IMG/VR virus record: IMGVR_UViG_3300047564_001819
Coordinates: 1-32,581 of that record
DNA length: 32,581 bases
Direction: 5' to 3' (one strand)
Source: a virus
Shown: positions 1-21,541 of the stretch, one piece after another
How the letters are laid out: every line of letters begins with the position of its first letter
Numbering within the stretch: the stretch's first letter is position 1
Translations under genes and position numbers: made by a program
The notes under the pieces: generated by a model
Database searches by the model: none
What the model saw: only the letters and a program-made list of their open reading frames with translations
Told to the model about the DNA's origin: nothing

Positions 1-132
1 TTGTCCAATCGTGACTATGATGATGAAGACATGTATTTGGCATCTAATTATTTGGTGACAGAAGCAGCACATCCACTTATGTTTGAACTGGAAGTAGACG
101 ATCCAGAACTTTTACCTAAAGATGATTCATGA
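1..132 (+). CDS. 3' end of an unknown gene (partial)
   Basis: An open frame runs in from the left edge and stops with TGA at 130-132. The visible 43 residues are acidic (several Asp/Glu pairs) and match nothing I recognise. The stop overlaps the start of the cpeT-like gene by 11 bases, so the two are probably translated from one message. The true start lies outside the window. Confidence 0.6.
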   Translation: MSNRDYDDEDMYLASNYLVTEAAHPLMFELEVDDPELLPKDDS

Positions 133-622
133 ATTTCGTAATCGCTTAATTGGCACATTTGAGAACAAACGTCAAGCATTTCGTAATCCTTCTCGGTTTG
201 CGTATGTTAGAATTGTTCACAAGGATGTGGATGGATCTCTGATCTATGGCGAGCAAGCATACCACTATATGCTAAACTCTCCATATCGGAAGTTTGTCCT
301 AGAACCAGTTGAAGATAACGGAAGACTAGTAATTAAAAATTACTCAGTGATTGATCATAATCTTCCCATCACGAAAGATAATCTCTCCTATCGTGATGGT
401 TGTGACATCTATTTTAATCTAATTGATGATGTCTTTGTTGGATCCTCAGAAGGATGTAATTGCGTCGTGATGAGAGGAGGTAAGGAAACTTACTTCACAA
501 CAAAAGCACAGATTGGACCAAACTATTATCATGTTATTGATCGTGGTTTTGATCCAGTCAGCAAGAAACAAATCTGGGGAACTGAATATGGTCCCTTTGA
601 ATTTTCTAAACTCTCTATATAA
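122..622 (+). CDS. cpeT: CpeT/CpcT-type phycobiliprotein lyase
   Basis: 166 residues with the CpeT family pattern from end to end. Visible motifs are GTFENKRQAF near residue 11, EQAYHYMLNSPYR at 44-56, DGCD at 92-95, KETYFTT at 121-127, and DRGFDP followed by IWGTEYGPFEF at 140-161. Family members attach or chaperone bilin chromophores on phycobiliproteins, and shorter forms are known as auxiliary metabolic genes in marine cyanophages. At 166 residues this is shorter than typical cyanobacterial forms of about 200. It overlaps the preceding gene by 11 bases and is followed 20 bases later by an HNH gene. Identification is strong. Whether it attaches bilin or only binds it cannot be read from sequence. 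Confidence 0.9.
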   Translation: MIHEFRNRLIGTFENKRQAFRNPSRFAYVRIVHKDVDGSLIYGEQAYHYMLNSPYRKFVLEPVEDNGRLVIKNYSVIDHNLPITKDNLSYRDGCDIYFNLIDDVFVGSSEGCNCVVMRGGKETYFTTKAQIGPNYYHVIDRGFDPVSKKQIWGTEYGPFEFSKLSI

Positions 623-1808: not shown

Positions 1809-1816
1809 TATAAATA
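1809..1816 (+). promoter_or_regulatory. T4-type late promoter TATAAATA
   Basis: A perfect TATAAATA lies 31 bases upstream of the giant virion gene. T4-like phages, including cyanophages, use this -10 box with the gp55 late sigma factor and no -35 element. It fits as the promoter of the structural block. Confidence 0.75.
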
Positions 1817-14709: not shown

Positions 14710-15363
14710 ATGTCTATAATACCAATTAAACCTCCCGAGTTAATGGAGGGAAAATTTGATGATTTCATTGGAGTTTGGGAAGATCATGTTCCTAAATTTG
14801 TTTGTGATAAAGCCATTAAACATATCGATGAAGTTTTACTGAATTGTTCGACCAATCAATTACAACTTAACGATTCAATGGATATTGAACCCATGGAGGG
14901 GGACCGTCAATTCAAAACTAAAAATCTCGGTCGTCAAGATTATAGTGTAATGATTAATCATACTGCTGCGGCATTATGTAATGAATTTAATCAATATTTA
15001 CACTCTTGCTTTCTAGATTATATTGATCAATATGGACAACTTGCAAATACACCATTAATTGCTACAGATTCTAAACTACAAAGAACTGAACCTATGGGTG
15101 GGTATCATGTTTGGCATTATGAAGATACTGGATATGATATGGCACAAAGAGTTTTGGTTTGGATGATATATTTAAATGATCTTCCGGAAGGTGAGGGCGA
15201 GACAGAGTTTTTATATCAAAAAAGAAGGATCAGACCCAAAAGAGGAACATGTGTAATTTGGCCTGCAGGATATACTCATGTGCATAGAGGTTTAACTGTT
15301 TATTCTCAGAATAAATATATATTGACGGGTTGGTATATAAACGCCCCAGTATTACGTTACTAA
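14710..15363 (+). CDS. 2OG-Fe(II) oxygenase (prolyl-4-hydroxylase-like), 217 aa
   Basis: Double-stranded beta-helix oxygenase with a plausible Fe(II) triad: H136 and E138 in HVWHYED (HxE variant of the usual HxD) and distal H190 in GYTHVHRG. K202 near KYILTGW is a candidate 2-oxoglutarate ligand. Strand segments VLVWMIYLND and GTCVIWPAG are typical of the P4H branch. It lies seven bases after the collar genes, so likely co-expressed late. The substrate is unknown; a hydroxylated virion protein is a contextual guess. Confidence 0.8.
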   Translation: MSIIPIKPPELMEGKFDDFIGVWEDHVPKFVCDKAIKHIDEVLLNCSTNQLQLNDSMDIEPMEGDRQFKTKNLGRQDYSVMINHTAAALCNEFNQYLHSCFLDYIDQYGQLANTPLIATDSKLQRTEPMGGYHVWHYEDTGYDMAQRVLVWMIYLNDLPEGEGETEFLYQKRRIRPKRGTCVIWPAGYTHVHRGLTVYSQNKYILTGWYINAPVLRY

Positions 15364-16352: not shown

Positions 16353-17036
16353 ATGTTTCATACATTAACTCTTTTGAATGAACAGAATATTCAAAAATTA
16401 AATTCTCTTTATGATGCTGCTGAATTTAAAGCAGGTCTTATGACAAAGGTTGAATTTGTGCCACAAATTAAAAATAATCTAGAAATGACAAGAGGTGAAG
16501 GATATTTTACCGAAAGTGAAAAAATTATAGTATCATCAGTTGCTGAAAATTATGATTTTCAGGAGTATACAGCACTGAGAAAATACGGACCCATTTTATT
16601 TTCTCAGTATACTAGCGGTATGTATTATCACAAGCACAATGATTATTACAAAATGGGATCTGTTAGAACAGATTATAGTTGTACAGTTTTTCTGTCTAAT
16701 CCAGATGAGTATTCTGGTGGTGAGTTGATGATTGATATCGGCAATAAAGAAATCCCTTTTAAATTGGATGCCGGAGATGCTATAATATACCCAACTGGTT
16801 ATACACATAGAGTAAATGAAGTTACATCTGGAGTAAGACGTGTTTGCGTATTTTGGATCGAATCTACTATTCAAAACAGTGTTTTGAGGCAAATTAATTC
16901 AGATATGCATGGTATTATGAAAAATTACGCTGTTCCTGATAATTGGAAGGAAAAGCAACCAGAATTGTATGAAAATTTTGTTAAAATTAAATTTAATTTA
17001 CTAAGAAACTTTGGAAATTTTGAGGGAATGAACTAA
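16353..17036 (+). CDS. 2OG-Fe(II) oxygenase, PKHD-hydroxylase type (227 aa)
   Basis: Resembles PiuC/YbiX-type Fe(II) dioxygenases. H95/D97 in YYHKHNDYY form the HxD pair, H152 in YTHRVNEV is the distal His, and R162/R163 supply the 2-oxoglutarate arginine. The core strands CTVFLSNPDEYSGGEL and DAGDAIIYPTGY are diagnostic. All catalytic residues are present. Its stop shares one base with the next ATG (TAATG). Second of three oxygenases in 3.2 kb; substrate unknown. Confidence 0.87.
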   Translation: MFHTLTLLNEQNIQKLNSLYDAAEFKAGLMTKVEFVPQIKNNLEMTRGEGYFTESEKIIVSSVAENYDFQEYTALRKYGPILFSQYTSGMYYHKHNDYYKMGSVRTDYSCTVFLSNPDEYSGGELMIDIGNKEIPFKLDAGDAIIYPTGYTHRVNEVTSGVRRVCVFWIESTIQNSVLRQINSDMHGIMKNYAVPDNWKEKQPELYENFVKIKFNLLRNFGNFEGMN

Positions 17037-17374
17037 TGGAAAATTTAAGAATTTCTGATCTAATCAGCGATTATTGCATCAAAAATAGAGTAAGTTTAGT
17101 CTATTATGAAATTAAATATTCAACGATAGAAGAAAGGGAAAAGATATGTGATTTCTATGACGATAAAGTTGATATGGAATTTATCAATGCAATGAGAAAT
17201 GATGATGATTGTTTTTTCTCTTTCTCTAATGCATTAACAGCTGTTGAAATTGCGGAAATGAATTTCCCAACCAAGAGAGAAATATTGGGAATGACCAATG
17301 ACTTACTTTTATATGTTTTTTGTTGTGTTTATGATGAAAATGGTAATTTCCTCTGGGATAACTCTTTAGAATGA
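17036..17374 (+). CDS. Hypothetical protein (112 aa)
   Basis: Acidic protein with a helical N-terminal half and a C-terminal strand segment LLLYVFCCVYDENGNFLW. It overlaps the preceding stop by one base and the following start by four (ATGA), so it is translationally tied to two oxygenases. No family recognised. Confidence 0.7.
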   Translation: MENLRISDLISDYCIKNRVSLVYYEIKYSTIEEREKICDFYDDKVDMEFINAMRNDDDCFFSFSNALTAVEIAEMNFPTKREILGMTNDLLLYVFCCVYDENGNFLWDNSLE

Positions 17375-17865
17375 TAAAAGCTTTTGAAAATGTATTTTGT
17401 GACCAGCAACGTGATGAAATACAAAATTATTTGAGATCATCTTCCTGGCGTTATGGACATGTCAGTAAATCGGGAGATGACAACAAGAAATTTTGGATTA
17501 TGAATCTAAATGATCATGATTTTTTCACTAAACATTTGTTTGGATGCATAAAAGATCTAATTCAAATGGATGTTACTCTCTTGAATGTTTATGCTAATGG
17601 TCAAACATACGGACAATCTGGATCGTGGCATTTAGATTCTAATTCAAGCAATGAATATACTTTTTTGTTTTATGCAAATCCTCACTGGAACGTTAGTTGG
17701 GGAGGGGAGACGGTGTTTAATTTAAATAATGCATTATATTATTTTATACCAAAACCAAATACTGGACTATTATTTCCTGCAAATATTTGGCACTATGCAA
17801 AGTCTCCAGAAAAAGATTTTTTTGATCTGAGAACTACAATAGCTTTTAAGCTGAAATTAGCGTAA
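17371..17865 (+). CDS. 2OG-Fe(II) oxygenase (164 aa)
   Basis: Compact oxygenase. H87 and D89 in SGSWHLDS form the HxD pair, H141 in ANIWHYAKSP is the distal His, and R154 in DLRTTIAFKL is the 2-oxoglutarate ligand. GGETVF follows the WHLD strand, as in many 2OG enzymes. It ends the late cluster; a palindrome and strong promoter follow at once. Closer to cyanobacterial and phage 2OG proteins that lack an accessory domain. Substrate unknown. Confidence 0.85.
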   Translation: MIKAFENVFCDQQRDEIQNYLRSSSWRYGHVSKSGDDNKKFWIMNLNDHDFFTKHLFGCIKDLIQMDVTLLNVYANGQTYGQSGSWHLDSNSSNEYTFLFYANPHWNVSWGGETVFNLNNALYYFIPKPNTGLLFPANIWHYAKSPEKDFFDLRTTIAFKLKLA

Positions 17866-17953: not shown

Positions 17954-19207
17954 ATGAACCTCCGTCCCCACCAGCAACGTGCTCTCGCCGCTATGGAGAA
18001 GCATAACACGGGTCGTATTATCATCCCTACGGGTGGTGGTAAGACTCTGATTGCTATTGAGGATCTCAAGCGTCGTCTGCTCGCTTCTGATGCCCCTAAG
18101 ACTGCTGTAATCGTTGCTCCCCGCATTCTGCTTGCTAACCAACTCTGCGAAGAGTTCTGGTCTGCTCTGAATGGTGATGTTCATGCTGCTGTGGGTCACG
18201 TTCACAGCGGTGAGACTGATCACTTTCACAGCACCAAACCTGCTGTAATTCGTGGTTTCAACGATGTCACTCTGAACGCTGGTCTTCACTGCCTGCTGTT
18301 CACCACCTATCAGTCTCTCAATCGTATTGTTGAGAGTGAGATTGATGTGGACTTCGTTTACTTTGACGAGGCACATAACAGCGTTCGTCGTGATTTCTTC
18401 CCGACTGTTGCTGACGTTGCTGGTAACGCCACCAACGCTTATTTCTTCACTGCTACGCCTAAGTATCACAACAATCCTTATGCCAATGGTATGAACAATA
18501 CCATGGTGTATGGTGAGGAACTGATCAGTGTGCCTGCTCCTGAACTGATTGAGAACGGCAGCATTCTTCCTCCTACCATCAAGTCGCACAAAGTAGACTT
18601 TGCTCGCCAAAAGTCTCTTGCCGCAGCTGACAATGACAAGCAAGTTCTGCTTGACATTATTGACGAACTGGATGACGAACATGCCCAGAAGATTCTGGTT
18701 GCTGCTCCTAACACTAAAGTTCTGTGGCGTCTGCTGACCAAGACTGATGTGATCTCTCACTTCACTGCTCATGGTTACAACGTGCTTCATATCACTGCGA
18801 AGCATGGTGCCTATGTCAATGGTCAGAAAGTTGGTCGTGAGGTGTTTTTTAACACTATGACCAAGTGGGGCGAAGATCCTACTATCAAGATGATCATCTT
18901 CCACTACAGCATTCTTGCTGAGGGTATCAATTGCCCTGGTCTCACTCACACCATCCTGCTGCGTTGTCTGCCCGTCATTGAGATGGCACAGACCATTGGG
19001 CGTGTGATTCGTCTTGACCGCCGTGATGCTGCTGATATTGCCTCTGGCAAGATTGCTGCTGGTGCGTGTGAGTTCTATCGTAAGAAGACTGGTTTCGTGA
19101 CTGTGCCTGTGTTCGCCAACTATGGTCAGCGCACTGAGAAGCGTCTTCAAGCGATCATTGAGAACATCTTCATCAAAGGTATCGCTGCTACCGAATATTC
19201 CATCTGA
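17954..19207 (+). CDS. SF2 DEAH-box helicase (417 aa)
   Basis: RecA-like domain 1 has Walker A PTGGGKT (25-31), DEAH (138-141) and motif III FFTATP (164-169). Domain 2 has motif V-like LAEGINCPG near 321 and motif VI QTIGRVIRLDRR (346-357). It belongs to the Rad3/Ssl2-like group that includes T4 UvsW; UvsW-type enzymes unwind branched DNA and R-loops. It lacks the N-terminal domain of UvsW, so I give no symbol. Third codon positions are clearly richer in C/G than in the structural genes. It has its own strong promoter and starts the early module. Confidence 0.88.
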   Translation: MNLRPHQQRALAAMEKHNTGRIIIPTGGGKTLIAIEDLKRRLLASDAPKTAVIVAPRILLANQLCEEFWSALNGDVHAAVGHVHSGETDHFHSTKPAVIRGFNDVTLNAGLHCLLFTTYQSLNRIVESEIDVDFVYFDEAHNSVRRDFFPTVADVAGNATNAYFFTATPKYHNNPYANGMNNTMVYGEELISVPAPELIENGSILPPTIKSHKVDFARQKSLAAADNDKQVLLDIIDELDDEHAQKILVAAPNTKVLWRLLTKTDVISHFTAHGYNVLHITAKHGAYVNGQKVGREVFFNTMTKWGEDPTIKMIIFHYSILAEGINCPGLTHTILLRCLPVIEMAQTIGRVIRLDRRDAADIASGKIAAGACEFYRKKTGFVTVPVFANYGQRTEKRLQAIIENIFIKGIAATEYSI

Positions 19208-20410: not shown

Positions 20411-20620
20411 ATGGACATCCATACACATATTGAAAAAGACAGACAAATTTTAGGAGATCCTATGGTATCTTCTCAGTCTCGCCGTCATGTTGAAGAAGAA
20501 TTAGAGTCTCTGGAGCGTTATGCTGCTTCTCATCCAGACGATGAGCATGACCCAACTGCTCTAGAACTCTATTGTAACGATAATCCGGAAGCATTGGAAT
20601 GTAAAGTTTATGACGTGTGA
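20411..20620 (+). CDS. Hypothetical acidic protein (69 aa)
   Basis: Acidic, helical (QSRRHVEEELESLERYAA), with a Glu/Asp-rich end. It starts one base after the previous stop and overlaps the next gene by 11 bases. No function recognised. Confidence 0.58.
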   Translation: MDIHTHIEKDRQILGDPMVSSQSRRHVEEELESLERYAASHPDDEHDPTALELYCNDNPEALECKVYDV

Positions 20621-20924
20621 AATTGATCCATCTTTGAACACTTACCCACATAATTACATGGAAAAGACTTATCAATCTGTTCGCAAAGATCGTCTTGTTG
20701 ATGTCATTGGTGATTATCTCACTGATGAAGAATGTTCAGCAGAACAATTCTATAACGAATTAGTTGGTGAAATTGATACCTGGATTGAATATCATCGTAA
20801 ATTCCTTGAGAAGGCTAAACTTGTCAAGAAAATGGTAAATGGTCATCGCCCACTGACTTTTGAAGATGACACCATCACCAACTATAGTCCACAATATCTT
20901 GCTGAAGATATTCTCGCGCTGTGA
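20610..20924 (+). CDS. Hypothetical protein (104 aa)
   Basis: Helical and acidic (VDVIGDYLTDEECSAEQFYNEL, then HRKFLEKAKLVKKMV). ATG 20610 overlaps the previous gene by 11 bases; ATG 20658 is an alternative start. Its stop is inside the GTGA start of pebS, so it is translationally coupled to it. No function recognised. Confidence 0.58.
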   Translation: MTCEIDPSLNTYPHNYMEKTYQSVRKDRLVDVIGDYLTDEECSAEQFYNELVGEIDTWIEYHRKFLEKAKLVKKMVNGHRPLTFEDDTITNYSPQYLAEDILAL

Positions 20925-21541
20925 AAAACCTCTGGAAAAACTATAAGCAAGCAATTCACGATACCTTCCCAGAACTCAAACAAGTAGAACTCTGGAATCA
21001 CTGGGAAGGTAAGATGACGATGGATGCTTATGTCTATCGTGGTGGTCATTTCATGCGAACTAGAGAAGCACTGGTCCGCAATGATACTACAGACATTTAC
21101 AATCATGTGCTGTATCCCTACACTGGCAAGAATACACCATGCTTCAGTGTAGACTTGATGGGATTCTTTGAGAACAAAGTGATCATCGTATTTGATTTCC
21201 AGCATCCTGTAGAGAACTATAAGTTCAGTGTTGGTGATAGACTACCCAAAGACACTGGTAAATATAGATTTTTTGAGATGGGAAATCATTTTAGTGAGCA
21301 TATCTTTGTTCGCAAATGTACAATGTCAGAGGTTGATAACTATCTGGATGATTTTGTATCTTATTTGTCAGTATACAAGGAAATAGTTTATAACGATGCT
21401 CCTTTTAGTATAGATACATCAGCATACAAAGATTTTGACTCATATATGCGTAAACTTGACCCCATTTCTGGGTATATGAATAACATTTACGACAAAGATA
21501 AGTCTAAATCATTTGTTGAAGAGTTCCTATTCATTTACTAG
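20921..21541 (+). CDS. pebS: Ferredoxin-dependent bilin reductase, PebS type
   Basis: 206 residues closely resembling phage phycoerythrobilin synthase (PebS), which reduces biliverdin IXalpha to phycoerythrobilin in two ferredoxin-dependent steps. Signatures are YPYTGKNTPCFSVDLMGF (residues 65-82), VIIVFDFQHP (88-97), GKYRFFEMGNHFS (113-125) and KLDPISGYM (178-186). D78 and D180 align with the two catalytic aspartates I recall in P-SSM2 PebS (D105, D206). The N-terminus is about 25 residues shorter than P-SSM2 PebS as I recall it, starting at GTG 20921 in a GTGA overlap. PcyX-like activity is the main alternative. No heme oxygenase gene is in this window. Confidence 0.9.
   Translation: MKNLWKNYKQAIHDTFPELKQVELWNHWEGKMTMDAYVYRGGHFMRTREALVRNDTTDIYNHVLYPYTGKNTPCFSVDLMGFFENKVIIVFDFQHPVENYKFSVGDRLPKDTGKYRFFEMGNHFSEHIFVRKCTMSEVDNYLDDFVSYLSVYKEIVYNDAPFSIDTSAYKDFDSYMRKLDPISGYMNNIYDKDKSKSFVEEFLFIY

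Follow-up and report, generated by a model that had tools for sequence, protein, structure and literature searches.

A predicted phycoerythrobilin synthase (PebS) in a T4-like cyanophage whose genome map holds no detected heme oxygenase gene

Introduction

What kind of bilin reductase does a cyanophage carry when no heme oxygenase gene (ho1) lies next to it, and where would its biliverdin come from? This question is raised by a gene at 20921..21541 (forward strand) of the IMG/VR record IMGVR_UViG_3300047564_001819, the 32,581-nucleotide stretch of DNA that was analysed here (the window). PebS is a well-studied gene known only from phages (PMC13198022), and its expression in a cyanobacterium yields phycoerythrobilin that enters phycobilisomes (PMC13197396). 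An initial annotation of the window had read the gene as a convincing PebS, remarked on the lack of an ho1 neighbour, and proposed that the shortened N-terminus and GTG start might mark a distinct subclass.

Results

A closed phage map without a detected heme oxygenase

The window differs at only 6 of its 32,581 positions from part of a longer record, IMGVR_UViG_3300047510_001256 (G001; 144,687 bp). All six fall in the helicase gene at window positions 18847-19018, and their packing within 172 bases suggests a short stretch of recombination or a mixture of strains. The two ends of G001 are shared with another record, IMGVR_UViG_3300047564_002687 (G024; 57,535 bp), over 1,930 bp at 99.8% identity and 186 bp at 100%, and together the records close a T4-like cyanophage map of ~200.1 kb, a usual size for the group. 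G001 and G024 come from two different metagenome samples, and the searches and comparisons were made on them in pieces; the circle thus joins near-identical phages and is not a single assembly. G001 encodes terminase, portal, major capsid protein, DNA polymerase, helicase, ribonucleotide reductase and psbA. The bilin reductase gene is phage-encoded, the window being that of a T4-like cyanophage with tail-fibre genes and its parent record carrying the terminase, portal and major capsid genes. Close together beside the tail-fibre genes, the window also holds three genes of 2OG-Fe(II) oxygenase / endonuclease V-like type (14710-15363, 16353-17036 and 17371-17865).

No heme oxygenase gene was found in the window, as first remarked, and the search of the rest of the genome, which the initial annotation had called for, returned none on the ~200.1-kb map of G001 and G024. 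The PF01126 profile detected none in G001, even at E<=10, and none in G024, which holds no second bilin reductase either; tblastn with cyanophage and pelagiphage heme oxygenases gave only noise on the phage map, and phmmer found none on its ~200 kb. A copy elsewhere in the phage was rejected on the basis of these profile, tblastn and phmmer searches. It is improbable that a phage heme oxygenase exists and escaped them. The IMG/VR records are fragments, one junction of the map rests on 186 bp, and PF01126 would miss a biliverdin-forming enzyme that is highly divergent or not homologous; however, at the same settings this profile caught ho1 at E<1e-50 in 9 of the 16 records with pebS and nothing here, where the tblastn queries, too, met only noise.

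The window gene belongs to the PebS clade

The 206-residue product of the gene matches PF05996 (E=4.6e-15; 56.3 bits against a Pfam cut-off of 31) and PHROG 7278 (phrog_7278; E=4.8e-49), a match far beyond chance. Among solved structures, PebS of phage P-SSM2 (2vck) was the closest at E=1.2e-68, with 51.6% identity over the whole length, and was followed by PebA (2x9o) at only 4e-7, while PcyX (5owg) and the PcyA structures gave no match at E<=0.001 in this PDB sequence search. We then placed the protein in a tree of 72 bilin reductases, comprising 33 PebS, 8 PebA, 8 PebB, 8 PcyA, 4 phage PcyA and 11 PcyX (including EBK42635/5owg), with PebA, PebB and most PcyA drawn from picocyanobacterial genomes. 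PebS came out as a single clade in each of the 200 bootstrap trees, and the window protein lies inside it at 100/100. With three relatives (L002, L003 and L004) it makes up a four-row subclade, again at 100/100, whose identity to full-length PebS genes in deposited phage records is 46-56%. On this phylogeny the predicted enzyme is a PebS, apart from PebA, PebB, PcyA and PcyX, which settles the question of PebS or PcyX that had been left to a tree. As judged from its sequence, it is a known kind of enzyme that adds a new, fairly deep PebS subclade with genome context.

Catalytic positions and selection

N88, D105 and D206 of P-SSM2 PebS are catalytic residues. Their counterparts in the window are N61 (codon 21101..21103), D78 (21152..21154) and D180 (21458..21460; all on the forward strand), each invariant in 94 PebS sequences; the two aspartates had been aligned correctly from the start. 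Where at least 95% of the 94 PebS agree, the window protein deviates at two columns only, both beside D78. Unlike most PebS, its clade has S and V at P-SSM2 positions 103 and 104, beside D105, and H in place of T or N beside N88. These changes, close to catalytic positions, could alter the rate or the product. Pairwise dN/dS is 0.09 against relative L002 and 0.08 against L003; the gene is under strong purifying selection, and other contigs hold intact copies 68-100% identical to it.

We consider it very improbable that the enzyme has come to perform only a two-electron reduction in the manner of PebA, leaving the host PebB to complete the reaction. The clade-specific changes do adjoin catalytic positions, and, according to work cited in PMC13198022, a change of an active-site aspartate in PebS halts the reaction at 15,16-dihydrobiliverdin; against this, N88 and both catalytic aspartates are retained, selection is strong, and the gene falls in the PebS clade and not with PebA. 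That it is a decaying or non-functional remnant is harder still to credit. Such a remnant apparently occurs in phage S-T4 (MH412654.1, locus L099 ~1934-2692), where a C-terminal match of only 61 residues persists in small separate frames between the cobS-position gene and gp45, the pebS site of several relatives, but in the window the frame is intact, with dN/dS of 0.08-0.09, and the copies in other contigs are intact as well. Lastly, there is next to no chance that the enzyme is a phycoerythrobilin synthase of the PcyX type or a PcyA of phage origin. These phage-encoded reductases are comparable to it in size, and wrong names have been given to such phage enzymes in the past (PMC13198022), yet PcyX and PcyA stand across a 100/100 branch from the window protein, on which ground they were rejected, neither 5owg nor PcyA was matched in the structure search at E<=0.001, and the gene has no adjoining ho1, unlike PcyX loci.

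The short N-terminus is the common form of PebS

An in-frame stop lies five codons 5' of the GTG with no further start codon in between, and GTG is therefore the only possible start; a longer N-terminus read from upstream was rejected on the same grounds. The GTG overlaps the stop of the preceding gene as GTGA, which suggests translational coupling between the two. This preceding gene (20610..20924, forward strand) is a small cyanophage gene (phrog_535, E=4.2e-26), the like of which occurs in 296 phage records. Relatives start at the same position, with GTG in L001, L002, L004 and L005 and ATG in L003. Moreover, a plausible start can be placed no more than 8 codons before or 3 codons after that of the window in 93 of the 94 PebS genes, a few of which have ATGs further upstream too, and 206 residues is the commonest length. 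P-SSM2 alone, taken at its annotated start, begins further out, 19 codons upstream. Given that nearly all starts lie nearby and that 206 residues is the commonest length, the short N-terminus is the PebS norm and, with a start common to the nearest relatives, does not mark a subclass. In length it is the crystallised P-SSM2 enzyme that is unusual.

Heme oxygenase genes lie next to pcyX, not pebS

The remark on the missing neighbour presupposed that phage pebS genes often sit beside ho1. We searched the flanks of these loci, which for PebS amount to ~890 kb, by tblastn with one heme oxygenase from a cyanophage and one from a pelagiphage. None was found in the flanks of the 94 PebS loci, whereas 77 of 81 PcyX loci had one. 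In ten records that carry both genes, pebS and ho1 are 16-90 kb apart, counted around the circle. The adjacent ho1-pcyX cassette is a published property of PcyX (PMC11480375), and the premise seems to have been carried over from it. A 2010 survey of 16 T4-like cyanophages recorded pebS in four genomes, the very four that had ho1 (PMC3037559, Table 3), which is co-occurrence and not adjacency. Moreover, by profile search, isolates S-BM3, S-8S55, Sf-FS3, S-SCSM1 and S-PRM1 carry pebS without any ho1. A pebS without a neighbouring ho1 is thus the rule and not an oddity.

Some single loci are of interest in themselves. The ho1 of S-SSM7 (GU071098.1 225042-225645) is split into two frames and is whole in the very similar S-SSM6a. 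In P-RSM6 (L089:5965-7297), pebS and pcyA are adjacent and overlap, and this phage could make both phycoerythrobilin and phycocyanobilin. In S-PRM1 (L095:2486-3115) and in AG-345 single-cell virus records, pebS is annotated as a hypothetical protein or left unannotated.

Other photosynthesis-related genes and the probable host

The CpeT lyase that the initial annotation had placed some 20 kb from pebS was recovered at 122..622 (forward strand), ~20.3 kb upstream, as a putative T-type (CpeT/CpcT family) phycobiliprotein lyase gene (PF06206, E=3.2e-34). The closest solved structure to its product is CpcT (4o4o, E=3.1e-20), and the match to the cyanophage CpeT (5hi8) is partial (E=2e-4). G001 also encodes a plant-type [2Fe-2S] ferredoxin (64869-65159; PF00111, 5.3e-26), which matches 6vjv, presumably the P-SSM2 ferredoxin, at 5.1e-41, and an hli-like gene (65259-65519) recognised by motif, its Pfam match being under the cut-off. 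Its psbA (62235-63314) is closest to those of the Synechococcus CB0101 phages S-SZBM1 (85.9%) and S-CREM1 (82.1%), which makes a coastal or estuarine Synechococcus the likely host. The PF01126 search recovered a heme oxygenase from each of the eight picocyanobacterial genomes to which it was applied.

Outside the window, a gene for a full-length, cyanobacterial-type SLH-OprB porin of 491 residues (G001 65876-67351, reverse strand; L182:5876-7351; PF04966 3e-15, PF00395 6e-10) adjoins the ferredoxin, hli and psbA genes. Its only full-length relative in the phage collection is that of S-SRM01 (68%). Carried by a phage, such an outer-membrane porin of host type could influence the uptake of nutrients or superinfection.

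Promoter motifs and insertion site

On its main coding strand G001 has 30 copies of the late motif NATAAATA, versus 6 on the opposite strand; the motif mostly stands 20-57 bp ahead of a gene, in many cases a virion gene. In the window, a late-promoter-like TATAAATA is present at 1809..1816 (forward strand), 39 bp before a tail-fibre gene. The scan of G001 found NATAAATA directly upstream of neither pebS nor cpeT, and a late promoter ahead of either gene was rejected. Sigma-70-like sites barely exceed those in shuffled sequences (25 versus 18.5, sd 4.8), and no early promoter is claimed. pebS is one of a series of closely spaced small genes that follow the helicase gene. These features weakly favour early or middle expression for both genes. 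Since neither has the late motif directly upstream, their positions lend no support to the different timing that had been suggested for them. Comparison with the pebS-less relative S-H9-1 gave no clean empty site: the helicase and phrog_535 genes are common to both, the genes that follow differ, and no simple insertion is readable.

Discussion

Taken together, these data make it very probable that the window encodes an ordinary, functional PebS, in a phage that has a ferredoxin and no heme oxygenase, with biliverdin provided by the host and the product passed into host phycobiliproteins. The enzyme would reduce biliverdin IXa to 15,16-dihydrobiliverdin and on to phycoerythrobilin, a ferredoxin-dependent four-electron reduction by one protein. 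Electrons could be supplied by the plant-type [2Fe-2S] ferredoxin of the phage, or alternatively by a host ferredoxin. As the near-complete phage genome has no heme oxygenase, biliverdin would have to come from the host, through the host's own heme oxygenase. The phycoerythrobilin formed, a pink light-harvesting pigment, may then join host phycobiliproteins, possibly aided by the phage T-type lyase, and light harvesting would be upheld or changed during infection.

Among the pebS-bearing isolates tested by profile search, ho1 is present in all four from Prochlorococcus versus one of the six from Synechococcus (Fisher p=0.048, uncorrected for relatedness); a ferredoxin is present in 4 of 6 ho1-less versus 1 of 7 ho1-bearing records (p=0.10). 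For the host-genus comparison the PebS tree offers only one or two independent pairs, too few to rely on, and a statistical link between ho1 and host genus was therefore rejected. We tentatively raise the possibility, which we regard as doubtful, of two strategies according to host: Prochlorococcus phages would bring ho1 where host biliverdin is scarce, and most Synechococcus phages, including the window clade, would omit it, often bring a ferredoxin, and tap the large phycobilin flow of the host. A comparison of Prochlorococcus and Synechococcus phages makes the biliverdin source of ho1-less phages testable.

Comparison with known systems

The best-known relative is PebS of P-SSM2 (2vck; PMC13198022), which shares with the window enzyme its clade, the residues N88, D105 and D206, and 51.6% identity over the full length. 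It differs by a 19-residue N-terminal extension, the longest of the 94 with the starts as chosen, and by a short loop, both of which the window enzyme lacks; P-SSM2 also carries ho1, ~90 kb from pebS, whereas the phage of the window has none.

In its lack of ho1 by profile search this phage resembles S-BM3, S-8S55, Sf-FS3, S-SCSM1 and S-PRM1, and S-BM3, S-8S55 and S-SCSM1 likewise have a ferredoxin. Their pebS sites differ from that of the window, being the cobS/gp45 interval in S-BM3, S-8S55 and Sf-FS3 and the vicinity of talC and psbD in S-SCSM1. The PebS proteins of these five Synechococcus phages are 48-53% identical to that of the window, and a CpeT-family match is absent from all of them except for a partial one in S-SCSM1, whereas the phage of the window has one. 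The ho1-pcyX cassette, known from pelagiphages and from uncultured marine viruses (Mosig EXVC030M, EBK42635/5owg; PMC11480375), also involves a phage reductase that makes phycoerythrobilin, but it belongs to another clade and has ho1 in 77 of 81 loci, and the window gene shares neither feature.

The 122-622 product is of the same Pfam family as CpcT (4o4o) and the cyanophage CpeT of P-HM1 (5hi8). It is longer than the P-HM1 form and nearer to CpcT by score, and both lyase and pigment carrier are candidate roles for it. The presence of cpeT together with pebS is already known from P-HM1 and P-HM2 (PMC3037559, Table 3).
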